A stretch of 64,000 nucleotides of DNA from Nostoc sp. JL33 (GTDB taxonomy: Bacteria > Cyanobacteriota > Cyanobacteriia > Cyanobacteriales > Nostocaceae). Location of the stretch: the NCBI RefSeq assembly GCF_017114985.1, contig NZ_JABXKP010000012.1, positions 1-64,000 on the forward strand, read 5' to 3'. A program made the translations under genes and the position numbers. A model generated the notes under the pieces. That model ran no database searches, had not been told where the DNA came from, and worked only from the letters and a program-made list of their open reading frames with translations. Below, in pieces: positions 13,807 through 55,600 of the stretch (the first letter of the stretch is position 1; the number at the start of each line of letters is the position of its first letter).

Positions 13807-13827
13807 AATGACTAATGACCAATGACA
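13807..13827. repeat. heptamer repeat AATGACN x3 containing the fabD start
   Basis: Three units AATGACT, AATGACC and AATGACA run into the fabD gene; the ATG of the third unit is the start codon (13822). Each unit contains an ATG. A C-rich heptamer region (CCCCACT type) precedes it at about 13768-13800. Confidence 0.8.
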
Positions 13828-14703
13828 AAAACTGCATGGGTGTTTCCCGGACAAGGTTCCCAAGCGTTGGGAATGGGAATGGATTTATTAGATATACCCT
13901 CCGCTAAAAACAAATTTGCCCAAGCCGAGGAAATTTTAGGCTGGTCTCTAACAGAAATCTGTCAAAACGAAGAAGAAAAGCTATCACAGACGCTATACAC
14001 CCAGCCAATTCTTTATGTGGTAGAAAGCATTCTTGCTGATCTTCTCCGAGAACGAGGACACCAGCCAGATTTAGTTGCTGGTCACAGTTTGGGAGAATAT
14101 TCTGCCCTTTATATTGCGGGTGTCTTTGAGTGGTCGGCTGGTTTATATCTGGTGAAGCGTCGTGCGGAACTCATGGATAGTGCTGTCGGTGGGATGATGG
14201 CGGCTTTGATAAACTTTGACCGTGAACAGTTGGAAAAAGTCATTGCCCAAACGCCTGATGTTGTGCTAGCAAATGACAATAGCTCGACTCAGGTGGTAAT
14301 TTCAGGCACAGCTGAGGCTGTACAAGCAGTGATGTCTCAAGTTAAAGCAAAGCGTGCTATTCCCCTAAAAGTTTCTGGAGCATTTCACTCACATTTAATA
14401 GCACCAGCAGCTGCCCAATTCCAAGAGATTCTAGAATCTGTGGAATTTCAGCCAGCTATTGTACCAGTGTTGTCTAATGTAGAACCAATTCCCTCTATTG
14501 ATGCCGAGATTTTAAAGCAGCGCCTGAACAAACAAATGACTGGTTCGGTACGCTGGCGAGAAATTTCTCTGCAATTACCAGCCAACGGTATCCAGCGAGT
14601 AGTGGAAATTGGCCCTGGTAAAGTGCTAACTGGCTTGATTAAACGTAGTAGCCCTGATTTAATATTAGAAAACATCCAAAGTGCTGCTGATTTGCCTGTT
14701 TAG
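13822..14703 (+). CDS. fabD: malonyl-CoA:ACP transacylase
   Basis: A 293-aa malonyl transferase, which loads malonate on acyl carrier protein. It shows the N-terminal FPGQGSQALGMG oxyanion motif, the nucleophile elbow GHSLGEYSAL (Ser near residue 90), the Arg in LVKRRAELM and the catalytic His in SGAFHSHLI. Length is typical. The start codon is within a heptamer tandem repeat, so the region before it carries no clear independent ribosome binding site. Confidence 0.97.
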   Translation: MTKTAWVFPGQGSQALGMGMDLLDIPSAKNKFAQAEEILGWSLTEICQNEEEKLSQTLYTQPILYVVESILADLLRERGHQPDLVAGHSLGEYSALYIAGVFEWSAGLYLVKRRAELMDSAVGGMMAALINFDREQLEKVIAQTPDVVLANDNSSTQVVISGTAEAVQAVMSQVKAKRAIPLKVSGAFHSHLIAPAAAQFQEILESVEFQPAIVPVLSNVEPIPSIDAEILKQRLNKQMTGSVRWREISLQLPANGIQRVVEIGPGKVLTGLIKRSSPDLILENIQSAADLPV

Positions 14704-14838: not shown

Positions 14839-17800
14839 TTAGAACTTCATTTCAATTACAAATTCTGTACCCTCACCCAGAACAGAGTTAAAACTCAATT
14901 TCCCACTGTGGGTTTCTTCAACAATAGACTTGGCGATCGCTAATCCTAATCCCGTCCCTTTACCCACACCTTTTGTAGTAAATAAGTAGTCAAAAATCTT
15001 TTGTTTCACCGATTCATTCATCCCCTTACCATTATCAGCGATCGCAATTTTCACACCTTGATTTTCCAGGGAGGTTTTAATTATAATTCGGTTGGGATTG
15101 GTCTTAATTTCCTCAAAACTCCGTCCCGTATTTGATTCATCCAGCGCATCAATTGCATTGGCGATAATATTCATAAATACCTGATTTAATTGTCCAGGAA
15201 AACACTCAATCTTAGGTAAATTGCCATAATTGGTAATCACTTCAATGGCTGGACGGTGTTCATTTGCTTTCAGGCGATGTTTGAGAATTAAAATCGTACT
15301 ATCGATACCTTCGTGGATATTAAACGGCACTTTATAATCTTTGTCAGCACGGGAAAAAGTGCGGAGACTGGTGCTAATATTTTTGAGGCGATCGCACGCC
15401 ATCACCATTGAATCAATTGCCTTGGGTAAGTCTTCTAAGCTATAATCTAAGTCGATTTCTTCGGCATGAGCGAGAATTTCATCACTCGGATTTAGCAAAC
15501 TTTCTTGATATAGTTTCAAGTGTTCAACAATATCTGCAACGGTGGGTTTAGCTTGTTTGAGGCTAGCAGAAATAAAGCCTAAAGGATTATTCATTTCATG
15601 GGCTACCCCTGCAACTAAATTACCCAATGCAGACATTTTCTCACTCTGAACAATTTGTAATTGCGCTTGTTGTAAATCTTCTAAGGCTGTTCCCAGTGCT
15701 TGAGATTTTTCTATTAACGCTGACTCAGCTTGTTTGCGCTCGCTAATATTAATAGTTGTCCCGACTAGGCGATAAACTTTGCCCATCTCATCTTTTAATG
15801 GACTGAGTGTGGTTAACCACCAAGTTTTTTGGTCATTAAATGTTAGACATTCTTCATAGGTGACGGGTATTTCGGTTTGGAAACAACGCAGATATTTTTG
15901 CTCCACTGTTGCACCTTGATCATCAGCCATGATTTCTTGCGGAGTTTTACCCAGCACTTCCGAAGCAAGTATACCAGCCCCTAGTTCGCAGGATTTGCTC
16001 CATCCTGTGTACTCAAACCTACCATTATCGCGGACATCAATCACAAAGACGAGACAGCCAACACCTTCGTAAATACTACTGAGAAACTTTTCTCGCTTCT
16101 GGAGATGATTGTATAATTGGGCATTTTCCAAAGAAATCGCAGCTTGAGTGCAGAGAAAATTTATCACAGAAAGGCGATCGCTGTTAAATACCCCTTGAAT
16201 CAGTTGATTTTCTAGGTAGAGAATCCCCACCAAATGCCCTTGATTAATAATCGGGGTACAAAATACACTTTGGGGTTGATGTTCCATCATATATTTCCCA
16301 ATTGCTCCAAGAATATCTGTTTTGCAATTGTCTATAACAACTGTTTGTTGAGTATTCTTGACGTAATTGATAATATTGACGGGAATATCTTGACAATTGT
16401 CTATTGATTGTGTATTTACGATAGTTTGTATTTCCTCATGCTGAATAAAAGTAATTGCTCGTACTTGCCAAGTATCTTCTTGGGGAAGAATTAGTGCAGC
16501 TTTTTTTGCGCCAGAGTTCTCTAAGATAATACGCGTGAGACTGGCAATGAGTTGATCTAATTCTAGAGAACTGGAAATAGCTTGAGCCGCTTTCAGAAGA
16601 GAGGTAAAATCTAGAATATCGGAAATACTAGTACTGCCAGTGGTATTCGTGCCAGTAGATGAGGAAGTGCCACGAAAGCTAATAGTTTCTAGAGGATTGA
16701 AGTTAAGTTGTCGCTGTTGCAGAATGGGTTGCAGTAGTTGAGGATAACGTTTTTCTAAATCCTCGACTTTGGCTTTTGCTCCCCAATGGGCATAACAATA
16801 GTAAGCTTCTTGCATATATGCAACAGCGACTTTTTCTTTGCCCCAGTCGAGGTAGAACTTGGCGGCGAGTTCGTTAGCGAGGGCTTGTTCTTGGATGTAA
16901 CCGTTGGCTTTGGCTCCAGCAATGGCGCGATCGTACCAATCCCCTGCTTCATACTTCTTCCCTAAGACCCGATATTTTTCGGCTTCCACCAAATCAACCT
17001 TATGCTGATAATTCACCGGGGCATAGTGCGCCCAGTGCTGTAACTGCATTTGGTTCTGTGCCACGCGCTGTAATCCTTCTGACGTCTCATCTAGCTGTTG
17101 ATTCAATTGTGCCAGAGCAAGTAGAGAATCATAAAAATAAAATGCGGGTTCACTGACCAGTCCCGCACCAGCCATAAAATAGCGTCTGACCTCAATTGCG
17201 TGGTTGTTAGCTGCTTCCATTTCTCCAAACAGGAAGCAAAGCATCAGCTTATACAAATAGAAAATGTATAACCCATACCCATCATTCGCAGACCGCAGCA
17301 GGGACAGAAATTCCGTCTCTTGCAGAGCTTCCCCAGACAAAATGGTGGGATGCTCCGCCAAATTCAGCAAATTTAAAAGAGGTTGCCAATAGATTCGGCA
17401 GTAATTGGCTGATGTCAATTGGTTAAGTTGCACCAACCCATTGCAGTAAGCACGAGTCTCCTGCTCCAAGGTCGTCAGGGACTGACCGCACCAAAAAGAA
17501 TAGCTACAAAAATTGTGGGCATTATGCCCAGCATAATCTAGGTTTCCTACTTCTAGTCCAGTGGCATAGCCTTCTTGCAAGAGTATTAGCGTTTCTTTAA
17601 TGTGAGATTTGCGTTGTAAAATATATAGTCCCAGAATTAGCAACACTTCAGGTTTAGTCGCTTTGGCATTTAGTTTTGAGACGACCTGGAGGGCTAATTG
17701 ACCAAACTGTACTGCTAAATCCACATTTTGTAAAACATTACACATAATAAGACCATAGCTACTATAGCTAGAGGCTGAAGCCAATGTGTTTCCGTACTGA

Positions 17801-20622
17801 ATGGATAGTTTGACTGACAAGCAAATCAGTAATGGGAACAAGGGGGAACCAGAGAGGTAAGCTGCTGGCATGATGCTAGTGGCAATCTGGACAATCGCGA
17901 GTTTTTCCGCATTCGTCATCGCGCTTAGATGAACTAAATCTTCAATCTCCCTGTCTCCAATCAGTTCGCTGATCTCTTGGATTGACCGTTGAATATCACT
18001 TGGTGTGGGTGTTTCAGGAAATCTTACCCCAAGTTGTTCCAGGAGCAATTGAGCGATCGCAATGGCTTCAGTAAATTTATTCTGGGAGGAATTTGCTTGA
18101 ATTCTAATATAGTAAACATTGATCTTTTCCAATAAAGAGTGCGCCTGTGAGATGACAATATTAATGAACCGTTCCATCTGTTCAAAATCGCCGCTCAAGT
18201 AAGCAACTTCAGCCCCTAATTCATGCAGGGCAAGGGTTATTTCATATTGCTGTTGCCAAGCGTTTTCTCCCAGCAATGATAATCCGGCTGCGGCATAGTC
18301 GCGAGCTGCTTGATAAGCGGTGGTGGCTCTGGCTCTACGACAGGCAATAAAGTTGAGTTGTGCTAATTCATCTCGTTCTGATTGTTGAGTAATCAGAGAT
18401 GTTCCATAGTTTAATTGATTGACCAGTTCAAAAATGCGATCTTCTCTTGCTTCTGGAAAAATCTGTTGTAAAAGCAGTTGTCCGATATGATAATGGGTTG
18501 TCTGTTTTTGGTCTTCGGGAATCAGTGAATAAGCAGCTTGCTGAACGCGATCATGTGAGAATTTATATTTGGCTAATTGTTTATCGGTATTCCTATTTTC
18601 CACCACCAATTCTTCATTATCATCTCCCTGATAAAACTTGTATATTTCACTAATAGGTAAAATCAATCCTTCCTGCAATGTCTTCCACAAATAATCTGCC
18701 GTTTCTATCTCAGATTGTTCCGAAACAATTGCCAGAGTTGCTAATTCAAACTGATTCCCGATACACGCAGCTAATTGCAAGATGTTTTGAGTTGATTCTG
18801 GCAATTTCTGTAATTGCAATGCCATGAATTCAACTACATTATCTGTAATTGCTTGCTGAGTCACTTGTGAAATATCACATTCCCAACACCCTGGCTCAAA
18901 ATCAAATTGAATCAGATGCTCTTGATATAATGCTTTGAGAAACTGTGTAGCGAAAAATGGATTACCTTGAGTTTTCTGAGATACTAATTTAGAAAGGGGT
19001 AATGCTAAATTTCCTGTACATTTAAGTGTATCAGCAACTAACTGATTCACTTGCCCTTGACTTAATGGTGCTAAAGTAATCGTATTAATCGTGGCTGCGG
19101 TTTTTTGGATATCATTCAAAGTCAACATTAAGGGATGTGCTGGATTGACTTCATTATCACGATAAGCACCAATTAATAAAAGATGCTTTGTCTCAGCCAT
19201 TAATAACTGCATTAACTTCAACGATGCCGAATCTGCCCATTGCAAGTCATCTAAAAACATCACTAATGGATGTTCTAAGCTGGTGAAGACTTGGGTGAAT
19301 TTCTGAAATAATAAATTAAATCGATTTTGTGCCGCAGTTCCTGATAATTCTGGAGATGGTGGTTGGATACCAATTATTCTTGATAATTCGGGAATTACTT
19401 CAATAATTACTTGTCCATTTTCTCCAACAGCCTCTAATATTTGGTTTTTCCATTGCTGGATTTGTGCATCACTTTCGCTTAACAGTTGCCCCATTAAATC
19501 CCGGAATGCTTCCACAAATGCACTAAAGGGAATATTGCGTTGAAATTGGTCATATTTACCTTTGATAAAATAACCGCGTTGCCGCACAATTGGTTTATGA
19601 ACTTCGTTGACAACCACAGTTTTACCAATTCCCGAAAAACCTGCTACCAGCATCATTTCTGTTGCACCAAGGCTAACTCGCTCAAATGCTTGGAGTAGAG
19701 TTGATACTTCGGTTTCTCGTCCATAAAGTTTGTCGGGGATGATGAAGCGATCGCACACATCCCGTCGCCCAATTGGGAAACTCTTAATTTCACCAGTTTT
19801 TTGAAGTTGAGTTAAACAATTTTCTAAATCAAATTTAATTCCTAATGCACTTTGATAGCGGTCTTCAGCATTTTTAGCCATCAATTTCATCACGAGATCA
19901 CAAAGAACTTGGGGAATCTCTTCCCTATTCCCTAAAAGTGGTGGAAGTTTTGCAATATGACAATGCACTAACTCCATCACATCGTTTGATTGAAACGGTA
20001 ATTCTTCTGTTAATAATTCGTAGAAAGTTACACCTAAAGAATAAAAATCAGTGCGATAGTCAATCCCCCGATTCATTCTGCCAGTTTGTTCTGGGGAAAT
20101 ATAAGCGAGTGTTCCTTCTAACACATTGGGATTGATGATCGTTTGAGTTTCCCGTGGTAGTAAAGATGCAATACTAAAGTCAATTAATTTAACTTCTTTG
20201 GTTTCGGGATTAATTAGAATATTCGCGGGTTTAATATCTTTATGAATAATCCGATCGCGGTAGAGTATATCTAAGGTATTGCACAGTGCGATCGCTATCT
20301 GTAAAAACTCCGTGAGATTTCGTAGACTTTCCCCTGTTACCCATTCTTTCAGAGAAATCCCCCCAAAGTCTTCCATCACCAACGCATACCCATTTTGATA
20401 CGCTTGGAGGCTGTAGGTTTGGATGATTAGGGGTGAGTTGAGATTTTTGGCAATGGTGTACTGATTGCGAAACTGCACCAATTCGCTGAAACTGGGATAA
20501 GGATTTTTCAGCAGTTTAATCACTACTTTTAAGGAGTCAGTTTCTCGATACCCACGATAAACTAGGGTTCTCGAACCATTGTATAGTTCTTCGCTGACTT
20601 GATATCCGGGAATAGTAACCAT
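14839..20622 (-). CDS. giant HstK-type Ser/Thr + histidine kinase (copy A)
   Basis: A 1927-aa multidomain signalling protein. Domains in order: Ser/Thr kinase (about 5-270), with Lys in VVIKLLKN, HKDIKPANIL and IDFSIAS, so the DFG glycine is Ser; AAA/ATPase with Walker A GFSGIGKT (about 326) and Walker B MFLDDLQWADS (about 455); a long helical, TPR-like region (about 600-1300); GAF (about 1330-1505); PAS (about 1515-1625); histidine kinase with H-box VAGVAHEMNNPLGFI (about 1670) and an ATPase with NAIDAL, DNGKGM and GKGTGLGLAI at the end. Cyanobacterial HstK proteins share this plan. No membrane segment is obvious, so it is probably cytoplasmic. No response regulator gene is adjacent. A tandem paralogue lies 74 bp upstream, and the upstream leader is duplicated too. 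Confidence 0.92.
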   Translation of the reverse strand: MVTIPGYQVSEELYNGSRTLVYRGYRETDSLKVVIKLLKNPYPSFSELVQFRNQYTIAKNLNSPLIIQTYSLQAYQNGYALVMEDFGGISLKEWVTGESLRNLTEFLQIAIALCNTLDILYRDRIIHKDIKPANILINPETKEVKLIDFSIASLLPRETQTIINPNVLEGTLAYISPEQTGRMNRGIDYRTDFYSLGVTFYELLTEELPFQSNDVMELVHCHIAKLPPLLGNREEIPQVLCDLVMKLMAKNAEDRYQSALGIKFDLENCLTQLQKTGEIKSFPIGRRDVCDRFIIPDKLYGRETEVSTLLQAFERVSLGATEMMLVAGFSGIGKTVVVNEVHKPIVRQRGYFIKGKYDQFQRNIPFSAFVEAFRDLMGQLLSESDAQIQQWKNQILEAVGENGQVIIEVIPELSRIIGIQPPSPELSGTAAQNRFNLLFQKFTQVFTSLEHPLVMFLDDLQWADSASLKLMQLLMAETKHLLLIGAYRDNEVNPAHPLMLTLNDIQKTAATINTITLAPLSQGQVNQLVADTLKCTGNLALPLSKLVSQKTQGNPFFATQFLKALYQEHLIQFDFEPGCWECDISQVTQQAITDNVVEFMALQLQKLPESTQNILQLAACIGNQFELATLAIVSEQSEIETADYLWKTLQEGLILPISEIYKFYQGDDNEELVVENRNTDKQLAKYKFSHDRVQQAAYSLIPEDQKQTTHYHIGQLLLQQIFPEAREDRIFELVNQLNYGTSLITQQSERDELAQLNFIACRRARATTAYQAARDYAAAGLSLLGENAWQQQYEITLALHELGAEVAYLSGDFEQMERFINIVISQAHSLLEKINVYYIRIQANSSQNKFTEAIAIAQLLLEQLGVRFPETPTPSDIQRSIQEISELIGDREIEDLVHLSAMTNAEKLAIVQIATSIMPAAYLSGSPLFPLLICLSVKLSIQYGNTLASASSYSSYGLIMCNVLQNVDLAVQFGQLALQVVSKLNAKATKPEVLLILGLYILQRKSHIKETLILLQEGYATGLEVGNLDYAGHNAHNFCSYSFWCGQSLTTLEQETRAYCNGLVQLNQLTSANYCRIYWQPLLNLLNLAEHPTILSGEALQETEFLSLLRSANDGYGLYIFYLYKLMLCFLFGEMEAANNHAIEVRRYFMAGAGLVSEPAFYFYDSLLALAQLNQQLDETSEGLQRVAQNQMQLQHWAHYAPVNYQHKVDLVEAEKYRVLGKKYEAGDWYDRAIAGAKANGYIQEQALANELAAKFYLDWGKEKVAVAYMQEAYYCYAHWGAKAKVEDLEKRYPQLLQPILQQRQLNFNPLETISFRGTSSSTGTNTTGSTSISDILDFTSLLKAAQAISSSLELDQLIASLTRIILENSGAKKAALILPQEDTWQVRAITFIQHEEIQTIVNTQSIDNCQDIPVNIINYVKNTQQTVVIDNCKTDILGAIGKYMMEHQPQSVFCTPIINQGHLVGILYLENQLIQGVFNSDRLSVINFLCTQAAISLENAQLYNHLQKREKFLSSIYEGVGCLVFVIDVRDNGRFEYTGWSKSCELGAGILASEVLGKTPQEIMADDQGATVEQKYLRCFQTEIPVTYEECLTFNDQKTWWLTTLSPLKDEMGKVYRLVGTTINISERKQAESALIEKSQALGTALEDLQQAQLQIVQSEKMSALGNLVAGVAHEMNNPLGFISASLKQAKPTVADIVEHLKLYQESLLNPSDEILAHAEEIDLDYSLEDLPKAIDSMVMACDRLKNISTSLRTFSRADKDYKVPFNIHEGIDSTILILKHRLKANEHRPAIEVITNYGNLPKIECFPGQLNQVFMNIIANAIDALDESNTGRSFEEIKTNPNRIIIKTSLENQGVKIAIADNGKGMNESVKQKIFDYLFTTKGVGKGTGLGLAIAKSIVEETHSGKLSFNSVLGEGTEFVIEMKF

Positions 20623-20696
20623 ACTGCTAAATCCTGACGATTTTCATATCTAGTATTCCCAGATATCTGAAGTTATTTACCAAACAGGCCGGAAAT

Positions 20697-23600
20697 TTAT
20701 ACCGGAATTTCAATGATAAATTCTGTACCCTGACCTAGAACAGAGTTAAAACTCAATTTCCCACTGTGAGTTTCTTCAACAATAGACTTGGCGATCGCTA
20801 ATCCCAATCCCGTCCCTTTACCCACAACTTTTGTAGTAAATAAGTGGTCAAAAATCTTTTGTTTAACTGATTCATTCATCCCCTTACCATTATCAGCGAT
20901 CGCAATTTTCACGCCTTGATTTTCCAGGGAGGTTTTAATTATAATTCGGTTGGGATTAGACTTAATTTCTCTAAAATTACGTCCCGTATTTGATTCATCC
21001 AACGCATCAATGGCATTTGCCAGAATATTCATAAATACCTGATTCAATTGTCCAGCAAAACACTCAATCTTAGGTAAATTGCCATAGTCAGTTATTACTT
21101 CAATGGCTGGACGTTGTTCGTTTGCTTTCAAACGATGTTTGAGAATTAAAATCGTACTGTCGATACCTTCGTGGATATTAAACGGCACTTTGTAATCTTT
21201 ATCAGTACGGGAGAAAGTGCGGAGACTAGTGCTGATATTTTTGAGGCGATCGCACGCCATCACCATTGAATCAATTATCTTGGGTAAGTCTTCTAAGGTA
21301 TAATCCAAGTCAATTTCTTGGGCATGGTCGATAATTTCATCACCTGGATTGGGGAAACTTGATTGATAGAGTTTTAAGTGTTCAACAATATCCGCAAAAC
21401 TTGGTTTAGTTTGTTGAAGGCTGGCAGAAATAAATCCCAAAGGATTATTCATTTCATGGGCTACCCCTGCTACTAAGTTACCCAATGCAGACATTTTTTC
21501 ACTTTGGACAATTTGTAGATGTGCTTGTTGTAAGTCTTGTAGTGCTTGCCCGGCTTGTTGATACAGTCGAGCATTTTCTAGAGATATTGCAGCTTGAGAG
21601 GACAAGAGGTTAATCACGCTGAGGCGATCGCTAGTAAATACTCCTTGAGTTAAGCTATTTTCTAGGTAGAGAATTCCTACCAAATGCCCTTGATTAATAA
21701 TTGGGGTACAAAATACACTTTGGGGTTGATGTTCCATCATATATTTCCCAATTACCCCAAGAATATCTGTTTTGCAATTGTCTATAACAACTGTTTGTTG
21801 AGTATTCTTGACGTAATTGATAACTTTTACGGGAATATCTTGACAATTGTCAAGTGGTTGTTTTTCAAGTATAGTTTGTATTTGATCGTCAGCAATAAAG
21901 GTAATTGCTCGGACTTCCCAATGATCATTTTGGGGAAGTAGCAATACAGCTTTTTTCGCGCCAGAATTTTCTAAGATAATACGGGTGAGACTGGTAACAA
22001 GTGTATCTAATTCTAAAGAACTGGAAATCGCTTGAGCCGCTTTGAGGACAGAGGTAAAATCTAAGATGTCGGAAATACTGGCGCTATTTTTGTTATTAGA
22101 TGATGAAGTTCCATAAAAAGCAACAGTTTCTAGGGAGTTGAGGTTGATTCGTTGCTGTTGCAGGATGGGTTGGAGTAACTGAGGATAGGTTTTTTCAAGG
22201 TGATTAATTTTGGCTAATGCTCCCCAACGGGCATAGCAGTAGTAAGCTTCTTGCATATATGCTTGAGCCACTTTTTCTTTACCCCAATCGAGGTAAAATT
22301 TAGCTGCTAGTTCGTTAGCCAAAGCTTCTTCTTGAATGTATGCGTTTTCTTTGGCTCCAGCGATTGCGTGATCATATAAATCAATTGCCTCAAATCGCTG
22401 GCCTAAGACCGAATGACGCTCTGCCTCTACTAAATCAAACTTATGCTGAAAATTCATCGGTGCAACTGTGGCTCGAACTTTTAGGTGTTTCTGATTTTCG
22501 TCAACCCTCAAGAGTAATTTTGTTTGTTCAGAGGGTTCAACTTTAGAATAGAGAGATAGACGAGCCAAAGAATCATAATAATAGAAGACAGACACAGATA
22601 GCATTCCTGCACCACCTTTGAGGTGGCGCTCTCCTTTATCTGCATTGTTAACAGCCGCTAGAGCATCATCAAATAAGTAGCTAAAAATTAACTTAATTAG
22701 GTAAAATTCATGGAGTGTAAATTCATCATTCTCTTGGAGTAGAGCAGGTATAAGTTTTTCCTCATTCCAGTATTCATCAATCAACAAATCCGAATTAGTA
22801 CTAGATTGCGTGAGAGCTTCAATAGTTCGTCGAAGAATACTAACTCGAATTGAGAAAGATTGACTACTCGCAAAATTTAACTCGTAGATTTTAATTTCTT
22901 TCAGCAGTATTTCTAATTTTTCCCCACTAACTAGATAGGTATAAAAAAGCCGGAAAAATGTTGCTACAATTATATGTACAAAATCTCCAACTTCTAACCC
23001 AAAAGTATAAGATTCTTTTAATAAATTGATTGCATCTCGAACAGGTAGTTTGTTAAATTGATTAAATGCAGCTACTTTGAAGTTAGTCATACTTTGAACA
23101 TATTTTGCTTCAAATTTATCTACAATTCTTAAAGCTAACTGCCCAAATTTGTAGCCTTTTTCTAATTCGTCTAATACTGCATTCAAAACAATGGCAAAGT
23201 CAGCGTATCCTGGTGCTGAGAGTGGTGCATTGCCGTATTTAAGCGATAAATTCACTTGTTCACAGGCAATGATCGGAAATAGGTGGGGAGCAGCCTGATG
23301 CACAGAGGGAGTGAGGCTGATCATAATTTTTAGGGCAACTAAAGCTTGAGGATCAGTCATCAAAGGTAGATCAATTAGGCTTTCAATCTGGCGCTCTCCC
23401 AATATTGACAATGTGTTTTCTATAGCTTGATGAATGTCGGAAGAGGTAATAGATTTAGAGAAGAATATTCCAAGCTGTTGGAGAGTTTGGCATCCAATCT
23501 CGATTGCTTTAAGCATCTGCCCTTGTACCTGATAAGACTGAAGCTGAATCTCATAAACCTTGACTTTATCTAATAGATTTTTTGCTTGTTTAATAACAAC

Positions 23601-24596
23601 TTTAATTAGCAAATCCATCTGTTCAAATTCATTATTTAGAAAGGCTGCTTCGGCGGCAGCTTGATATAAATCTAGCGTCAAATCATTAGCATTTTCCCAG
23701 CCATCACTAATCACTAACTGAATGCCCTGATTGAAATATTGGAGAGCTGCACCATAAGCGATCGCTTCTTTGGCTTTGCGACCTGCATTAAGATTTAGTT
23801 GAGCTAACTGTTGACGTTTTGTTGGCTGGGTAATGAGTGCGATTCCACAATTTAACTGACCGACAATCTCAAAAATTCGCTCTGACTGCTGGGCTTCTGA
23901 TATATTTTCTAAAAGTAATTGCCCGATTTTGAGATGGGTTAACTGTTTCTGTTCTTCTGGAATCAGATAAGAGGCCGCTTGTTGGACGCGATCATGCAAA
24001 AATTTGTATATAGCTGTCTTTTCTCCTAACCTAAAGTCAGCCACTTGCGTGTCTATATTGTTTATTATCTGGTGACTGTTTTCTAATGATGAATCCTGAT
24101 AAAACTTATAAACTTCACTAGTAGGTAAAATTAATCCTTCTTGTAAAGCCTTCCATAAGCTAACTGCCGTTTCTATTTTTGATTGTTCTGAAACTATTGC
24201 CAAGGTTACTAAATCAAACTGATTGCCAATACAAGCAGCTAACTGTAAGACTTGCTGAGTGGATTCAGGTAGTCTGCGTAATTGAGTCACCATAAAGTCT
24301 ACGACATCATCTGTAACCGCTTGCTGATTCACCCGTGCAATATCACATTGCCAACAGCCTAGCTCAAAATCAAATTCAATCAACTTATCTTGATATAATG
24401 CTTTCAGAAATTGGGTAGCAAAAAATGGATTCCCTTGAGTTTTCTGCGATATCAATACAGAAAGCGGTAATGCCAAATCTTCTGTACATTTAAGTGTATC
24501 AGCAATTAACTGATTTATTTGTCTTTGAGTTAATGGTGCTAAAGTAATCGTATTAGTTGTGGCTGCTGTTTTTTCGATTTCATTTAAAGTCACCAT
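20697..24596 (-). CDS. giant kinase copy B, C-terminal part after frameshift
   Basis: A 1299-aa frame that continues copy B after the frameshift near 24643-24651. It begins inside the ATPase domain (VTLNEIEKTAATTNTITLAPL corresponds to the middle of that domain in copy A), so the ATG at 24596 is an internal Met, not a proven start. It carries the helical TPR-like region, a GAF domain (about residues 845-1010), then directly the histidine kinase with H-box VAGVAHEMNNPLGFI (about 1038) and a complete ATPase with GKGTGLGLAI. The PAS domain of copy A is missing. The last 250 residues are almost identical to copy A, the middle only distantly so. Confidence 0.75.
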   Translation of the reverse strand: MVTLNEIEKTAATTNTITLAPLTQRQINQLIADTLKCTEDLALPLSVLISQKTQGNPFFATQFLKALYQDKLIEFDFELGCWQCDIARVNQQAVTDDVVDFMVTQLRRLPESTQQVLQLAACIGNQFDLVTLAIVSEQSKIETAVSLWKALQEGLILPTSEVYKFYQDSSLENSHQIINNIDTQVADFRLGEKTAIYKFLHDRVQQAASYLIPEEQKQLTHLKIGQLLLENISEAQQSERIFEIVGQLNCGIALITQPTKRQQLAQLNLNAGRKAKEAIAYGAALQYFNQGIQLVISDGWENANDLTLDLYQAAAEAAFLNNEFEQMDLLIKVVIKQAKNLLDKVKVYEIQLQSYQVQGQMLKAIEIGCQTLQQLGIFFSKSITSSDIHQAIENTLSILGERQIESLIDLPLMTDPQALVALKIMISLTPSVHQAAPHLFPIIACEQVNLSLKYGNAPLSAPGYADFAIVLNAVLDELEKGYKFGQLALRIVDKFEAKYVQSMTNFKVAAFNQFNKLPVRDAINLLKESYTFGLEVGDFVHIIVATFFRLFYTYLVSGEKLEILLKEIKIYELNFASSQSFSIRVSILRRTIEALTQSSTNSDLLIDEYWNEEKLIPALLQENDEFTLHEFYLIKLIFSYLFDDALAAVNNADKGERHLKGGAGMLSVSVFYYYDSLARLSLYSKVEPSEQTKLLLRVDENQKHLKVRATVAPMNFQHKFDLVEAERHSVLGQRFEAIDLYDHAIAGAKENAYIQEEALANELAAKFYLDWGKEKVAQAYMQEAYYCYARWGALAKINHLEKTYPQLLQPILQQQRINLNSLETVAFYGTSSSNNKNSASISDILDFTSVLKAAQAISSSLELDTLVTSLTRIILENSGAKKAVLLLPQNDHWEVRAITFIADDQIQTILEKQPLDNCQDIPVKVINYVKNTQQTVVIDNCKTDILGVIGKYMMEHQPQSVFCTPIINQGHLVGILYLENSLTQGVFTSDRLSVINLLSSQAAISLENARLYQQAGQALQDLQQAHLQIVQSEKMSALGNLVAGVAHEMNNPLGFISASLQQTKPSFADIVEHLKLYQSSFPNPGDEIIDHAQEIDLDYTLEDLPKIIDSMVMACDRLKNISTSLRTFSRTDKDYKVPFNIHEGIDSTILILKHRLKANEQRPAIEVITDYGNLPKIECFAGQLNQVFMNILANAIDALDESNTGRNFREIKSNPNRIIIKTSLENQGVKIAIADNGKGMNESVKQKIFDHLFTTKVVGKGTGLGLAIAKSIVEETHSGKLSFNSVLGQGTEFIIEIPV

Positions 24597-24640
24597 TAGT
24601 GGATGGGCTGGGCTGACTTCATTATCACGGTAAGCACCAA

Positions 24641-26146
24641 TTAAAAAAAAAGATGACCTATATCAGTCATTAATAGCTGCATTAACTTCAGCGATGCTGA
24701 ATCTGCCCATTGCAAATCATCTAAGAACATCACTAAGGGATGTTCAGTACTAGGAAAAACTTGGGTAAATTTTTGAAATAATAAGTTAAATCTATTTTGT
24801 GCCGCCGTTCCTGATAATTCTATGGCGGGTAGTTGTTGACCAATAATGCGTTCTAATTCGGGTATGACTTCAATAATTACTTGTCCATTTTCTCCAACAG
24901 CATCTAATATTTGGTTTCTCCATCGCTGAATTTGAGCATCACTTTCGGTTAACAATTGACCCATTAAATCCCGAAAAGCTTGCACAAATGCACTGAAGGG
25001 AATATTACGTTGAAATTGGTCAAATTTACCTTTGATAAAATAGCCACGTTGCCGCACAATCGGTTTATGAACTTCGTTGATAACCGCAGTTTTACCAATT
25101 CCCGAAAAACCAGCTACCAGCATCATTTCTGTCGCCCCAAGGCTGACTCTTTCAAATGCTTGGAGTAGGGTTGATACTTCTGTTTCTCTTCCATAAAGTT
25201 TGTCGGGGATAATAAAGCGATCGCACACATCCCTTTGGGCAAGTGGAAAACTCTTAATTTCACCAGTTTCTTGAAGTTGAGTTAAACAATTTTCTAAATC
25301 AAATTTAATTCCTAATGCACTTTGATAGCGGGATTCGGCATTTTTCGCCATCAGTTTCATTACGATATCACAGAGAACTTCGGGAATAGTCAAATCAACC
25401 TCACCCCAACCCTCTCTTTGGTAAGAAGAGGGTGCTTGATGCGGGTCAGGTTTATTCATATTGGGTGGAAGTTTTGCAATATGACAATGCACCAACTCCA
25501 TCGCATCATTTGACTGAAAAGGTAACTCACCTGTGAGTAATTCGTAGAAAGTTACACCTAGAGAATAAAAATCAGTCCGGTAGTCAATCCCCCGATTCAT
25601 TCTTCCTGTTTGTTCTGGGGAAATATAAGCGAGTGTTCCTTCTAACACATTGGGATTGATGATCGTTTGAGTTTCCCGTGGTAGTAAAGATGCAATACTA
25701 AAGTCAATTAATTTAACTTCTTTGGTTTCGGGATTAATTAGAATATTCGCGGGTTTAATATCTTTATGAATAATCCGATCGCGGTAGAGTATATCTAAGG
25801 TATTGCATAGTGCGATCGCTATCTGTAAAAACTCCGTGATATCTCGTAGACTTTCCCCTGTTACCCATTCTTTCAGAGAAATCCCGCCAAAGTCTTCCAT
25901 CACCAACGCATACCCATTTTGGTAAGGTTCCAGGCTGTAGGTTTGGATGATTAGGGGTGAGTTGAGATTTCTGGTAATGGTGTACTGATTGCAAAACTGC
26001 ACGAATTCGCTGAAACTCGGATAAGGATTTTTCAGCAGTTTAATCACTACTTTTAAGGAGTCAGTTTCTCGATACCCACGATAAACTAGGGTTCTCGAAC
26101 CATTGTATAGTTCTTCGCTGACTTGATATCCGGGAATAGTAACCAT
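24641..26146 (-). CDS. giant kinase copy B, N-terminal part before frameshift
   Basis: A 501-aa frame with the Ser/Thr kinase domain (1-270; HKDIKPANIL, IDFSIAS again with Ser for the DFG Gly) and most of the ATPase domain (Walker A GFSGIGKT near 345, Walker B FLDDLQWADS). It ends at LMQLLMTDIGHLFF, where copy A reads HLLLIGAYRDNEV. The stop arises from a run of nine T on the coding strand. Adding one base, or removing two, would join it to the 20697-24596 frame into a protein of about 1815 aa. The product is thus either a broken gene, a phase-variable gene or one read by slippage. A repeat-derived insert lies at residues 227-253. Confidence 0.75.
   Translation of the reverse strand: MVTIPGYQVSEELYNGSRTLVYRGYRETDSLKVVIKLLKNPYPSFSEFVQFCNQYTITRNLNSPLIIQTYSLEPYQNGYALVMEDFGGISLKEWVTGESLRDITEFLQIAIALCNTLDILYRDRIIHKDIKPANILINPETKEVKLIDFSIASLLPRETQTIINPNVLEGTLAYISPEQTGRMNRGIDYRTDFYSLGVTFYELLTGELPFQSNDAMELVHCHIAKLPPNMNKPDPHQAPSSYQREGWGEVDLTIPEVLCDIVMKLMAKNAESRYQSALGIKFDLENCLTQLQETGEIKSFPLAQRDVCDRFIIPDKLYGRETEVSTLLQAFERVSLGATEMMLVAGFSGIGKTAVINEVHKPIVRQRGYFIKGKFDQFQRNIPFSAFVQAFRDLMGQLLTESDAQIQRWRNQILDAVGENGQVIIEVIPELERIIGQQLPAIELSGTAAQNRFNLLFQKFTQVFPSTEHPLVMFLDDLQWADSASLKLMQLLMTDIGHLFF
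24643..24651 (-). other. nine-base homopolymer at the copy B frameshift
   Basis: The plus strand reads nine A in a row (nine T on the coding strand). The matching place in copy A reads CTT TTA TTA ATT without a long run. The frame is off by one base here, splitting copy B in two. Confidence 0.85.
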
Positions 26147-26367
26147 ACTGCTAAATCCTGACGATTTCCATATCTAGTATTCCCAGATGGGTAAAGGAAT
26201 TCATAATTTAAAAGAATACAAAAAATAAATTATCCGATAGTAAAAAGCTCACTAAGCGTCAACTGAAATTGTCGAAATCAGTAGCTTGCGTTTCTACAGC
26301 TTTGTTAAGTTTGCTCTGGGGCTGGCGATCGCTTATGCTAAATTCAGCCTGATTTGAATTATCTTCT

Positions 26368-27006
26368 GTGGACAGAAACCGCGAACCGTTTATCAGTCTG
26401 GCACTTTACCACGCCTTTAAATGGTCGGTCGTCAGCCCCATGCTTCACACTTACTTTCGGGGCCAGATTTATGGTACGGAAAATGTCCCCCAATCAGGGG
26501 CGTTGCTGGTAGTGAGTAATCACGCTAGTTACTTTGACCCGCCGATTGTCTCCAACTGTGTACGTCGTCCAGTGGCGTACATGGCTAAGGAAGAGTTATT
26601 TAATATTCCCATATTGGCACAAGCGATTAAATTGTACGGCGCTTACCCGGTGAGTCGGGGAAATGCCGATCGCAATGCCATCCGTTCCGCCCTAGAATAT
26701 CTTGATAACGGTTGGGCTGTCGGTGTTTTTTTGCAAGGTACCCGCACCTCAGATGGTCGAATTACAGACCCCAAAAGAGGCGCATTGCTGCTGGCGGCGA
26801 AAGCAAAAGCCCCAATATTGCCGGTAAGTGTCTGGGGTACTGAGGGGATTTTACAAAAAGGATCGTCCCTACCTCGCGCAGTTCCCATCACTGTGAGAAT
26901 TGGTAACTTGATTGATGCTCCCAGTTCCACTAATAAAGAGGAATTGGAAGCGTTGACACAAAAGTGTGCCACGATAATTAATGAAATGCATGATTTAGGA
27001 CGATGA
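26368..27006 (+). CDS. plsC: 1-acyl-sn-glycerol-3-phosphate acyltransferase
   Basis: A 212-aa PlsC-family enzyme that adds the second acyl chain to lysophosphatidate at the membrane. It has the catalytic NHASYFD (HX4D), KEELFNIPILAQAI, and the substrate block FLQGTRTSDGR in place of the usual FPEGTRS, followed by KRGALLLAAKAKAPILPVSV. The start is a GTG (VDRNREPF); no upstream ATG in frame is available close by. It stands after the divergent leader of the giant kinase and before a MITE-like repeat. Confidence 0.88.
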   Translation: MDRNREPFISLALYHAFKWSVVSPMLHTYFRGQIYGTENVPQSGALLVVSNHASYFDPPIVSNCVRRPVAYMAKEELFNIPILAQAIKLYGAYPVSRGNADRNAIRSALEYLDNGWAVGVFLQGTRTSDGRITDPKRGALLLAAKAKAPILPVSVWGTEGILQKGSSLPRAVPITVRIGNLIDAPSSTNKEELEALTQKCATIINEMHDLGR

Positions 27007-27246: not shown

Positions 27247-28284
27247 ATGAGCGGCTTTGAAGCCAAAAATTTTTGGGAGCGATTAAATAATCTGGCGTTA
27301 GTCCGCTTTTTGCTTTTGCTTGCTTCTGGCTGGGCAATTGTACAACTTTTAGCTTACTTTGAAGCGGTCATTGTTATTTTTACATTTGCTGCAATTTTGG
27401 CTTTTTTACTCAGCTATCCTGTACAATGGCTGCGGCGTTTTTTGCCCCACAGTGTAGCTGTTGGTGTCGTTTTCTTGCTCAGTATTGTGATTATTGGCAG
27501 CCTGATAATTACCGTGGGCTTAACGGTTTTATCTCAAGGACAACAATTAATTGACAGTATAACTGGCTTTGTAAATTCTTTAATACCTCTATTAGAGCGA
27601 CTAGAAGGGTTTTTGCGAAACCGTAATTTGCAGATAGATTTAAGTTTTCTTCAAGAACAATTACGAAACCAAGCTGTATCAACTCTTGTTACTAGTTTAG
27701 CTATTTTACAAGGGTTTATGACGAACTTTGTGACATTTGTCTTAATTGCAGTTGTGGCTTTTTTCATGCTATTAGATGGAGACAAGCTCTGGAACTTTAT
27801 CATAAAGATAGTACCAAAACAGCGCCGCAATAGATTTACAAATATAATCAGACGCTCCTTTCTCGGATTTTTTAGAGGTCAGTTATTATTAAGTGCATTT
27901 CTCACAACTACGACTTTTCTAGTTTTTTTAATATTAAAAGTACCTTTTCCTTTGATATTATCAGTGATAGTCGGAATTGTTGATATCATTCCTGGCATAG
28001 GAGCAACATTAGGAGTCAGCACAGTGACTCTATTTGTGTTGTCTCAAGGTGTTTGGTTAGCATTAAAAGTGTTGATAGCTTGTATTGTCCTCCAGCAAAT
28101 ACAAGACAACTTGATTGCGCCCCGAATTATGCAAGATGCGCTGAATCTTAATCCTGTAGTGGTATTTTTTGCTTTGCTAGTAGGCGGTAGAGTCGCAGGA
28201 TTACTAGGTGTTTTTATATCTATTCCCATCGCTGGAGTAATTGTATCTTTATTTGAAATTGATGAAATGAAATCAGAAGTTTAG
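27247..28284 (+). CDS. AI-2E family transporter (PerM-like)
   Basis: A 345-aa polytopic membrane protein of the AI-2E/PerM family. It has paired hydrophobic segments at about residues 18-60 and 68-95, a soluble stretch (100-150), and then a C-terminal block of four or five membrane segments with the family pattern IVDIIPGIGATLG and QDNLIAPRIMQDALNLNPVVVFFALLVGG. Members export small molecules or exchange ions; in cyanobacteria the substrate is generally unknown. It follows plsC on the same strand, separated by a MITE, so an operon is doubtful. Confidence 0.88.
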   Translation: MSGFEAKNFWERLNNLALVRFLLLLASGWAIVQLLAYFEAVIVIFTFAAILAFLLSYPVQWLRRFLPHSVAVGVVFLLSIVIIGSLIITVGLTVLSQGQQLIDSITGFVNSLIPLLERLEGFLRNRNLQIDLSFLQEQLRNQAVSTLVTSLAILQGFMTNFVTFVLIAVVAFFMLLDGDKLWNFIIKIVPKQRRNRFTNIIRRSFLGFFRGQLLLSAFLTTTTFLVFLILKVPFPLILSVIVGIVDIIPGIGATLGVSTVTLFVLSQGVWLALKVLIACIVLQQIQDNLIAPRIMQDALNLNPVVVFFALLVGGRVAGLLGVFISIPIAGVIVSLFEIDEMKSEV

Positions 28285-51217: not shown

Positions 51218-51892
51218 CTACTTTAAGTGAGGTATCTTTGGTCTTACCAAAGTAGTCGATGAATTAGCAGTTCGGGAATTAGTGGTTGAGGAATTAGTGC
51301 TTGAAGAATCAGTATTCGGAGAACTGAGGTTCAAGAAATCGATTAGTTTAAGGGTACGATTACGAATTTTCCAGCGCCCATTTATGTTGACAACTTTATC
51401 TTCATAAGTACCATTAGCGACATCAATGCTGGTTTCAGAACGTTTGTGAGTCGCATGAAGGTAAGAGGTCATCCTTGCTTGATTATTTTGAACTGAAATG
51501 TTTATCGTACCCATTAAATGTTGGGTAGCTTGATATCCATTTCCTTGGAATACTGAATAGACAAAATCTGCCCAAGAATCTGTCCCATAACTTGTTTGAG
51601 TTGCCCCATCAGGAAAAATAGCAGTGAGGACTGCATCTTGAGTAAAACAATCCCGATAAATACTCTTTCCCTCTAGGAGATTTCCTCTACCAATAGCATC
51701 AGTTCCCAGCGCGTAACAGGATGTTAATTTTTGAATTTCTAATTCCGCGTTGGGTTGAGTTGCACTTGCTACCTCAAACCTACCTCCAATAAACAGCACA
51801 AAAGTGACTGCAAGCACAATCAAAGTTATACGATTTAACAGAAACGAGATAGCCTTTGAAACTATTCGCCCATTTTCTCTTTTTTTTTCCAC
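51218..51892 (-). CDS. SnoaL/NTF2-like protein with membrane anchor
   Basis: A 224-aa protein with an N-terminal membrane segment or signal (about residues 18-42, ITLIVLAVTFVLFIGG). Residues 50-190 form an NTF2-like/SnoaL-like alpha+beta fold: ELEIQKLTSCYALGTDAI, YRDCFTQDAVLTAIFPDG, QATQHLMGTINISVQNNQARMTSYLHATH and TYEDKVVNINGRWKIRNRTLK. The tail is Ser/Thr/Asn-rich low complexity (about 196-216). Relatives include small-molecule binding and isomerase-like proteins; activity cannot be predicted. It would sit outside the cytoplasmic membrane. Confidence 0.72.
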   Translation of the reverse strand: MEKKRENGRIVSKAISFLLNRITLIVLAVTFVLFIGGRFEVASATQPNAELEIQKLTSCYALGTDAIGRGNLLEGKSIYRDCFTQDAVLTAIFPDGATQTSYGTDSWADFVYSVFQGNGYQATQHLMGTINISVQNNQARMTSYLHATHKRSETSIDVANGTYEDKVVNINGRWKIRNRTLKLIDFLNLSSPNTDSSSTNSSTTNSRTANSSTTLVRPKIPHLK

Positions 51893-52635: not shown

Positions 52636-55600
52636 TTATTCTCCCAAAATAGGAATTGAAATTATAAATTGTGTTCCTTGTCCCAAGACGGATTCACAAA
52701 TCAAACTTCCACCATGATTTTCTACTATAATTTGCCGACTAATAGATAATCCTAATCCCGTACCTTTTCCGACGCCTTTAGTAGTAAATAGATTCTCAAA
52801 AATGCAGCCTTTAACTTCTTCTGTCATTCCTTTAGCATTATCTTGAATCTTAATCACCACATTTTCATCCTCTAATATATTAGTTTCAATATTAATAATA
52901 GTAGGATATTTTTCTTCAATTTCTAGAAAACTACGACCGATATTTCCTTCTTCTAAAGCATCAATTGCATTTGCAATAATATTCATAAACACCTGATTCA
53001 ATTGTCCCAAATAGCATTTTACTAAGGGGATATCTGCATAATGTTTCATTATTTGAATGGCGGGACGATTATGATCAGCTTTCAGACGATGCTGTAAAAT
53101 CAGCAAAGTACTATCAATGCCTTCATGGATATTAGCTAACACTTTAGAAGTAGTATCAGCACGAGAGAAAGTACGGAGGGAAGTACTAATGTTACGAATG
53201 CGTTGTGTCCCCACTGTCATGCCATCAATCATTTTCGGTAAATCTTTTAGCAGGAAATCTATATCTATTTCTTCGGCTTTTTCTTCAATTTCAGCGCCAG
53301 GATTTGGGAATTTTTCTCGATAAAGTTGCAGATAGTCTATTAAATCAGTCACGACATCTTTTGCTTGGACAATACTACCTGTAATAAAACCAATAGGATT
53401 GTTTATTTCGTGTGCTACACCTGCAACTAAATTCCCCAGAGAAGACATTTTCTCGCTTTGGATAATTTGTAGTTGTGCCTCTTGTAAATCTTTTATTGAC
53501 TGTTCTAATTCTCTCGATTTGTCTTGTTCCCTTGTGTACAAGCAAGCATTTTCTATCGCAATAGCCATTTGAGAAACTAAAACTTTTAATACTTCTACCC
53601 TTTCTGGCACAAAAGCCCCTGATGATAGCTTATTTTCTAAATAAATAATGCCCGTAAGCTGTGATTGGTAAATAATAGGCAAGCAAAAAATTGATTTTGT
53701 TTGAGATTCCTGAATATAAATATCAAAGTTAAAAGGTTCTGTAATTATCGCATCATTTAATACAAGATATTGCTGAGTCCGAAAAACATAATTAATCACA
53801 GAGAGCGGTAAATCCTGATAGGTTTCAACAGGAATAGAGCGTAAAACTGTCACTACATCGTCAGCAGTATTTCCAGAAGCTTCGATATATAGTTGATTAT
53901 CTTTAAGTAGGAGTAGTACTGCTTTTTGTGCCGCAGTGTTTTCTAGTAAAATTTTGATTAGCTTGCCCAACAAATTTTCCAAAACGATTTCATTGGTAAT
54001 CGCTTGCGAAAACTTTATGAATGAATTAAAATCTAAAAAATCGCTCAAACTGCTATTGGTAGTCGTGGTAGTAGTAAGGTGAATTGTATCTATTTTTGAA
54101 GTAGTAGTTTCTATAGTAGTAGTTTGTCCTACTAGAAAAGTATGCTTTGATTCTAAGTGTTTAACTTTAGCGATCGCACCCCAACGAATATAGGCATAAT
54201 AGGCTTTAGTTATATAAGTTTGATGAATTAACTCTTTACCTAGAGATTGATAAAATTTTCCTGCTAACTCATAGGCTAAAGCTTCTTCTTGGAGAAAACC
54301 ATTTTGTTGAGATTTTGCAATAGAGTTTTCATAGTAGTCCATTGCTTCAAGCTTTTGACCCAAAACCTGATAGCGTTCTGCCTCTACAAGATAAAATCTG
54401 TGTAAGTGATTAGCTGGAGCATGAGTAGCCCAGAGTTCCATATGCTGCTGATTAGCTTGGACTTTTTCCAGAATAGCTTGCTTCTCAGACTCTTTAGCAG
54501 TATGATAGATTGCCAAGTGGGCTAAAGAATCATAAAAATAGAACAGTGGAACAACAAATAACCCTGTAACACCACCTAAAGATTTTTCTGCGATCGCAGC
54601 ATTTTCTACAGCTTTAAAATACTCCCCAAATATATAAGAGAGCATTAGTTTATTAACAAATAAATGGTTAATTGTGTAAAGATCATTTACTTGCTGATGA
54701 ATTGGCAGCATACTTTGCTCGTCGTAGGCTTCTCCAATTAAACAGTCCACATTTTCAAAATTTCCTTTCAAGTTTAAAACTGTTTGTAAATATACTAGGT
54801 TCCAAGTTAAAGCTACTTGTTGCTTGATTTTTTTTAGCGATTCACAGTAAGCTATCAGTTCTTTTTCTAAAACCCAAAGTTCCTTACCGAGCCAAAATGA
54901 ATGATAGGGATAAATGTAACCACAATAGCCAGCATATTCTAAATCTCCAGTTTCCAGACCACTAGAATACCCTGCCATTGCTGATGTTAATGTCTCTCTA
55001 ACATGCTCTTTCCAATGCATAACATGAGCGCTAACAACTGTCAGAATCTTAGCCTTAAGTTCTTGAGAATCAAATTGTGACACCAGACTTGAAGCCAGTT
55101 TACCAAATTCATAGCCAGAATCAATTTCTCCTTGAACTCCACAAAGAAGTAATCCATAAAGACTATAACCATAGGCAGATACAGCTGTATTCCCATACTT
55201 TAAGGACAAATTGACCATTTTACAGACAATGATTGGCATCATTGCAGGAGCAGTTTGAAAAGCCGCAGGGAGAACTCCCATTAAAATTCTCATCGCTGCA
55301 ATCTTATTAAGATCAGTCATTAATGGTAAGTTAATTAAATCTGCGTAGACGCGCAGTGGCTTGTCGTTAGACATCGCTTTACCTTTCAAAGAAGTAGAAA
55401 TTTCATCCATCCCCTGCTGAATATCAGTTGATGTCGGTTCATTTGGAAAACTTATTCCTAACAATTGCAGAATTGATACTGCTATTTTGATCGCTTCCAA
55501 TTGTTTACTTTGAATTATAGAAGCGATAATCTGTACTTCATAGACTTTCACTTTATCTAAAAGGGTTGTGGCTTGTTGCTGCACCACCTCAGCCCATTGC

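Follow-up and report, generated by a model that had tools for sequence, protein, structure and literature searches.

The window analyzed here is a 64,000-nucleotide stretch of Nostoc sp. JL33 (contig NZ_JABXKP010000012.1, positions 1 to 64,000) from a genome of 7.1 Mb in 106 contigs that we designate G000. It contains three giant dual-kinase genes of the HstK/cbSTKIII family on its minus strand, two of which lie in tandem between a fabD-type acyl transferase gene and a plsC-like acyltransferase gene. Copy A (14839-20622) is a single intact open reading frame (ORF) of 1927 amino acids (aa) in which Pfam places Pkinase at residues 7-257, AAA_16 at 298-484, GAF at 1354-1498, PAS_4 at 1542-1631, and HATPase_c at 1811-1926. 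Copy B (20697-26146), separated from A by 74 bp, follows the plan of A minus the PAS domain; PAS_4 is found in A only and B gives no PAS match, as the original prediction had it. That prediction also took B to be one gene. It is instead broken into two ORFs, 24641-26146 (501 aa) and 20697-24596 (1299 aa), at a nine-T run (24641-24652, minus strand) within AAA_16, a domain that is uncut in A and C; intact homologues of B exist. Copy C (52636-58119) is a distant paralogue that encodes 1827 aa in one intact frame and has the same plan as A, with Pkinase, AAA_16, GAF, and HATPase_c common to all three copies. The fabD-type gene (13822-14703, plus strand), named from its Pfam Acyl_transf_1 match and its neighbours, and the plsC-like gene (26368-27006, plus strand), identified with Pfam, form by synteny the left and right boundaries of a conserved locus, referred to below as the fabD site.

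The sections of PMC2176072 drawn on here define cbSTKIII dual kinases by an N-terminal Ser/Thr kinase (STK), a C-terminal His kinase, at least one GAF domain between them, and KD in place of RD in the catalytic loop. We find this domain order in A and C, and in B it is spread across the two ORFs. The translations read HKDIKPAN in A and B and HKDIKPSN in C, and DFS replaces DFG in A and B. By domain plan and KD motif, all three copies belong to the HstK/cbSTKIII dual kinases, with kinase activity predicted. The same sections of PMC2176072 (2007) describe many copies per genome, report incongruent STK, GAF, and HisKA trees, chiefly from two Anabaena strains and Nostoc punctiforme, propose new recruitment or domain shuffling, and cite nitrogen- or iron-dependent expression of three members. 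What differs in our analysis is the ATPase/helical middle ("AAA" is absent from the main text of that paper), its types, exchange at a fixed locus, and evidence from synonymous sites, none of which appears in those sections.

Self-BLAST of the window, filtered at 150 bp and 88% identity, returned just two repeats, both between A and B. The first, of 725 bp at 95.9% identity, pairs the 5' homogenized end of A (19940-20664, minus strand) with that of B (25464-26188, minus strand); it covers the start of the STK and 42 bp upstream of each ATG, and the near-identical leaders of the original prediction lie inside it. The second, of 835 bp at 90.4% identity, pairs the 3' homogenized ends of A (14849-15683, minus strand) and B (20707-21541, minus strand), which encode the histidine kinase (HK). 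Residue identity of B to A is 91% over A residues 1-483 and 89% over A residues 1642-1925, confirming the near-identical ends that had been predicted for this tandem pair. Synonymous divergence (pS), which was to be uniform along the gene if the prediction were wrong, is not uniform between A and B: it is 0.14 in the STK, 0.34 in the ATPase (AAA), 0.62, 0.78, and 0.53 in three middle regions (M1, M2, and M3), 0.36 in the GAF region, and 0.27 in the HK, and it spans 0.02 to 0.92 across 60-codon windows. A proposed check for breakpoints likewise gave a clear result. A three-segment fit placed breaks at A codons 665 and 1230, with nucleotide differences of 0.115, 0.496, and 0.150 and a log-likelihood gain of 397, compared with at most 8.4 in 20 shuffles made on a coarser grid. 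Since the middle is saturated at synonymous sites and the ends are low, duplication followed by protein constraint cannot account for the pattern. The strongly divergent middle of A (codons 666-1230; 16933-18627, minus strand) is about 565 residues long; thus, the loose similarity predicted for it holds and the predicted length of roughly 700 residues does not. Predicted helices and a peak of entropy, both described below, point to this segment as a tetratricopeptide repeat (TPR)-like helical arm, the proposed core of a sensor cassette. The STK tree (support 98) and the HK tree (89) join A and B as sisters; the M2 tree does not. Compared with A, copy C is close to saturation from end to end (pS of 0.65-0.83 across seven regions), in agreement with the greater distance predicted for it, and was therefore rejected as a recent exchange partner of A or B.

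We codon-aligned 85 full-length genes on A. They come from G000 itself, from 16 congeners and two other genomes of the same order, and from named genomes. These genes were drawn from stretches around high-scoring matches to A, with the fabD-site genes alone chosen by position, so the set leans towards A. Another 25 genes were added to give 110, and middle types were defined by single linkage at 50% identity in M2 (codons 831-1200). Genes that were incomplete or far longer were excluded before counting, as were solo histidine kinases, a 1452-aa gene of G034, and five duplicates, and 17 rows from named genomes, their flanks unchecked, were counted as lying off the fabD site. The 110 genes fall into 30 middle types, which occur across species and are typically about 32% identical to one another; A carries type T1 and B type T2. 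Among the 85 genes, median pairwise identity is 0.32 in M2, compared with 0.77 in the STK and 0.69 in the HK, which bears out the comparison of middle and ends that had been suggested for the paralogues. The Spearman correlation of pairwise identity in M2 is -0.05 with the STK and -0.01 with the HK, as opposed to 0.55 with the adjacent M1, and it is 0.70 between STK and AAA. Linkage therefore decays along the gene. On regional trees, the number of changes of locus label is 4 for the HK, 8 for the GAF region, 10 for the STK, and 18 for M2 (about 30 when shuffled), and the number of changes of type label is 46 for the GAF region, 52 for the STK, and 54 for the HK (about 73 when shuffled); the 19 type changes on the M2 tree are the minimum by construction. 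Nearest neighbours from the same genome are above chance in the STK (15 of 82) and the HK (20 of 82; about 3 when shuffled). These comparisons suggest that ends and middles are largely, not wholly, uncoupled. In PLSDB, sequences related to the A middle are found on 159 plasmid records, including 73 from Rhizobium, and all are below 60% identity, so there is no close donor among them; in the phage collection, no record matches the A middle at an E value of 0.001. At 254-319 kb of G012:C1 (L116-L119), a tandem array holds at least 11 giant dual-kinase frames of differing middle types in 65 kb.

We found fabD in 53 of 53 genomes of the genus and read its surroundings in 42, with 11 not read. In 27 of the 42, fabD has one or more complete or almost complete HstK genes beside it (one in 20 genomes, two in 6, and three in 1), giving 35 genes, a count that takes in the broken B and a G010 gene truncated at the edge of its contig; for the G010 and G054 genes, the plsC side falls outside the stretch seen. 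Other genomes have a shortened HstK (G034), a solo histidine kinase with two STK-only frames (G057), broken pieces (G040), a solo histidine kinase alone (G050), remnants (G007), or the tail alone (G052 and G016) at the site, which is empty in G030, G035, and G048. Neither HstK nor plsC lies within the stretch read beside fabD in G046, G053, G051, G005, and G008. The 35 genes represent 12 middle types. Six of these (T0, T1, T2, T5, T10, and T11) also occur off fabD in the G-numbered genomes, and T8 and T12 recur in named genomes alone, where flanks are unchecked. G000 shares no middle type with the genomes closest to it by fabD (G004, G054, and G062). Pairs of different type at the site have median identities of 0.83 in the STK, 0.32 in M2, 0.78 in the GAF region, and 0.82 in the HK. 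The GAF region tracks the locus, with a median identity of 0.44 between the fabD site and other rows, even among equal types. In the 49 same-type pairs at the site, median pS is 0.16 in M2, 0.36 in the STK, and 0.33 in the HK, with 0.24 for fabD itself and an rpoB baseline of 0.25 (136 pairs, 17 genomes). The 537 different-type pairs have the opposite gradient, the middle being more divergent than the ends, and a regional gradient in mutation rate or constraint cannot produce both.

Individual pairs of genes record exchange more directly. G011_C110_117249, which lies off fabD, and G012_C1_7670417, which lies at fabD, differ by 2.9% over codons 324-1484 and by 16.7% and 17.4% in the flanks, a fit with a gain of 161 compared with at most 7.7 in 20 shuffles. 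The M2 pS of this pair is 0.02, whereas rpoB pS between the two genomes is 0.23. A tandem pair on C81 of the window's own genome has zero difference at HK codons 1711-1890; in other parts the difference reaches 0.58. The same zero-difference pattern is seen over codons 1741-1920 in a G010 pair, and G010 also has a 1.6-kb repeat that runs across the junction from the end of one gene to the start of the next. Among self-compared stretches, end repeats that pass the 150-bp and 88% filter are present in the window, L031, L166, L170, L116, and L135. End repeats in G062 and G012 are 741 and 880 bp long at about 92% identity.

Within types, the median ratio of nonsynonymous to synonymous divergence (dN/dS) is 0.29 in M2 and 0.16-0.24 in the other regions. 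This purifying selection indicates that the variety of the middle is old and reshuffled, not fast-mutating, and we rejected rapid or positive diversification within types on a median that, as a summary of pairwise averages, leaves room for single sites to differ. Between types, entropy peaks at arm codons 801-1200 (1.9-2.5 bits) and falls to 0.69 at codons 1241-1280. For residues 290-1345 of A, AlphaFold with 18 sequences predicts a long all-helical arm with a local confidence (pLDDT) of about 90, the mean of the model being 77. The AAA_16 match at the head of this segment has an E value of 2e-42, as expected of a P-loop nucleoside triphosphatase (NTPase), and GFSGIGKT and FLDDLQW, which we take to be the Walker A and B motifs, are invariant or nearly so in 18 sequences. 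The top three Foldseek matches are the STAND-TPR structure 6mfv (E 6e-9), Avs3 (2e-6), and Apaf-1 (2e-6), with MalT domain III at rank 33 (E 0.003, TMt 0.66). On the predicted fold and these matches, a superhelical arm follows the NTPase, as in STAND (signal transduction ATPases with numerous domains) proteins. A sequence-profile search of the PDB gave no chain at an E value of 0.001. The middle is predicted to be a STAND-type ATPase with a TPR-like arm, and the arm is probably the ligand-sensing part. Among the PADLOC matches listed (the best 25 of 34, 35, and 34), the best stretch lies in the STK part and the 1299-aa part of B gives none; a known defence system, Avs or other, was rejected, as no match outside the kinase domain was found among those listed.

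We consider it probable that these genes are HstK/cbSTKIII dual kinases whose sensor arm is swapped by recombination in shared ends. The encoded protein would then run from a Ser/Thr kinase through a P-loop ATPase and a TPR-like helical arm to a GAF domain, with or without PAS, and a histidine kinase, a build like that of a STAND receptor. The sequence comparisons show that the arm occurs as many old types, that recombination in the conserved ends homogenizes the kinase ends between copies, and that it transfers ATPase-arm(-GAF) cassettes from one locus or species to another. As a consequence of such recombination, the fabD site carries different arms with similar outputs in different Nostoc genomes. 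Judging from the fold, each arm may bind a different ligand, and the ATPase may act as a switch through which every arm drives one and the same pair of kinase outputs. Donors could include the broken copies at the site, both B and those in relatives. The interpretation offered in the original prediction is thus supported: regional trees, the decay of linkage, nearest neighbours, and near-identical tracts all favour recombination that homogenizes the ends. Its picture of interchangeable receptors that share one signalling cassette also fits, except that the middle, instead of diversifying in place, consists of about 30 old types under purifying selection, a number of which are present at more than one locus and in more than one species.

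Plain tandem duplication, with constrained catalytic ends, a relaxed middle, and no recombination, agrees with the stronger protein constraint on the ends (within-type dN/dS 0.17-0.18 versus 0.29), but synonymous sites vary along the gene as much as the amino acids do, and the order is reversed in same-type pairs, in which the middle is less divergent than the ends. The non-uniform pS, together with pairs that have a near-identical middle between divergent ends, already refutes it, and we give it next to no credence. It is also highly improbable that draft assembly or misalignment has produced the mosaics. The 106 contigs of the own genome, the homopolymer frame break in B, and the roughly 110 contigs of G011, a member of the clearest cassette pair, speak for such errors, but different middles recur at the same site in 27 genomes, including G012, G062, and G064, which have about ten contigs or fewer, and end repeats are present within G062 and G012 as well.

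If within-genome conversion homogenized the ends alone and each middle stayed fixed at its ancestral locus, near-identical 3' tracts between tandem neighbours and an excess of same-genome nearest neighbours in the STK and HK would be expected, and both are seen. Homogenization of the ends does occur, but it is not the whole story: it does not lead to 12 middle types at a single syntenic site, none of them common to G000 and its three nearest genomes, or to one cassette at two loci in two species that is closer than rpoB. We regard concerted evolution of the ends by itself as unlikely; it would hold only if large ancestral arrays had been sorted by loss. An ancient large array at the fabD site that held all types and was lost differentially by lineage would be in keeping with the 0 to 3 copies per site, the broken remnants, and the arrays elsewhere (at least 11 copies in G012). 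It leaves unexplained a cassette that differs by 2.9% between ends that differ by 17%, as well as why same-type middles are closer than fabD in 0.69 of the 49 pairs (in the other 0.31 they are not). We judge this history to be quite unlikely.

Several observations weigh against the exchange of arms through shared ends or limit its reach. The type cut is arbitrary, in that the 85 genes give 28 types at 0.5 and 35 at 0.6, and the trough between the identity modes (0.45-0.55) is not empty. Ends retain some memory of the middle: the 46-54 changes of type label counted on the STK, GAF, and HK trees are fewer than in all 300 shuffles (at least 66), a gene's nearest neighbour shares its type in 39 of 100 cases for the STK, 40 for the HK, 53 for the GAF region, and 63 for the AAA region, and five of six T4 genes agree over the greater part of their length, with pS in the HK reaching 0.36. 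Same-genome nearest neighbours are not above chance in the AAA (6), M1 (4), M2 (3), M3 (2), and GAF (5) regions (of 82). Between A and B, the transition is gradual, which implies several events, and homogenization of the HK is not clearly private, B being equidistant from G004 and A (0.098 each). End repeats are present in just 6 of 20 self-compared stretches, and the zero-difference tracts come from drafts, whereas G062 and G012 reach about 92%. As for the fold, the AlphaFold model has a predicted template modelling score (pTM) of 0.60, the 6mfv match has a root-mean-square deviation of 14, many Foldseek matches are generic TPR proteins (others are Orc/Cdc6 proteins), and the nSTAND6 profile scores 23.2 bits on A, below the Pfam cut-off of 27.7.

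STAND receptors with TPR arms (MalT, 6mfv) or other arms (Avs3, Apaf-1) likewise place a superhelical or repeat arm after a P-loop ATPase. Their outputs are DNA binding, nuclease, or caspase recruitment, whereas the HstK output is two kinases and the arm stands mid-chain. The pheromone systems ComP, AgrC, and ComD are sensor kinases with a polymorphic input and a constant kinase. They resemble the HstK genes in combining a polymorphic recognition part with a uniform output; however, no cognate signal gene is seen at the HstK site, where the flanks are fabD and the plsC-like gene and the gap between A and B is only 74 bp. Fungal NLR/HET genes and STAND sensors diversified by diversity-generating retroelements (DGRs), as treated in parts of PMC10907252, also join a constant effector and NTPase to a variable ligand-binding part. 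The HstK variation differs in arising, on our reading, by recombination among old types with a within-type dN/dS of 0.29; no reverse transcriptase was found in ten nearby ORFs (Pfam, E 1e-5), DGRs and their template repeats not having been searched for. For multicellular bacteria, PMC7159879 and PMC10907252 describe conflict systems and the parts of them that vary; PMC1262709 was also among the literature considered. Incongruence of domain trees is already known in the HstK family. We did not find cassette exchange reported: no account of it in HstK kinases was recognized among the literature matches listed (the best 20 of 986 and 15 of 164, for example), with subscription journals mostly outside the scope of the search.

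A bolder reading, which we hold tentatively and think rather doubtful, is that the fabD site is a recognition locus like NLR/HET. At least about 30 old trans-species STAND arms, each for a different non-self or kin signal, would be kept by balancing selection and passed between species via the uniform kinase ends, all with one fixed two-kinase output. If the swapping of arms by recombination is correct, it would provide a route to ready-made new sensory specificity without rewiring of the signalling output, and the genes would constitute a set of chimeras made by nature. Given this natural exchange of ends and middles, arm swaps in the laboratory may well work, and they would open the ligands of this large kinase family to study. 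It would also mean that HstK orthology cannot be assigned on kinase domains alone.

The frame break in copy B was examined by comparison with L099, the nearest middle relative of B. The dN/dS in M2 is 0.22 and the parts of B show no sign of relaxed selection, which leaves a recent break, a tolerated one, or a fault of sequencing; B may be a pseudogene, the assembly may be faulty, or transcriptional slippage may restore the frame. The window contains two A/T runs of nine or more, one of which is the break site. The second (T on the plus strand, 51880-51888) lies near the GTG start of a minus-strand ORF that is SnoaL-like (51218-51892).

Broken or remnant HstK pieces are present at the fabD site in L174, L178, L184, L187, L192, L196, L200, and L202, which suggests frequent gain and loss there. 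In 11 relatives (L168, L171, L173, L174, L176, L177, L179, L180, L181, L186, and L188), a frame of 762-807 aa adjoins fabD. Its match to HstK is confined to the C-terminal histidine kinase, and it may participate in the same exchange. One gene past the right boundary of the locus, Pfam and synteny identify an AI-2E family transporter (27247-28284, plus strand). The AI-2E transporter that adjoins the locus in G004 (G004:C136:67487-68521) carries an in-frame TAG.

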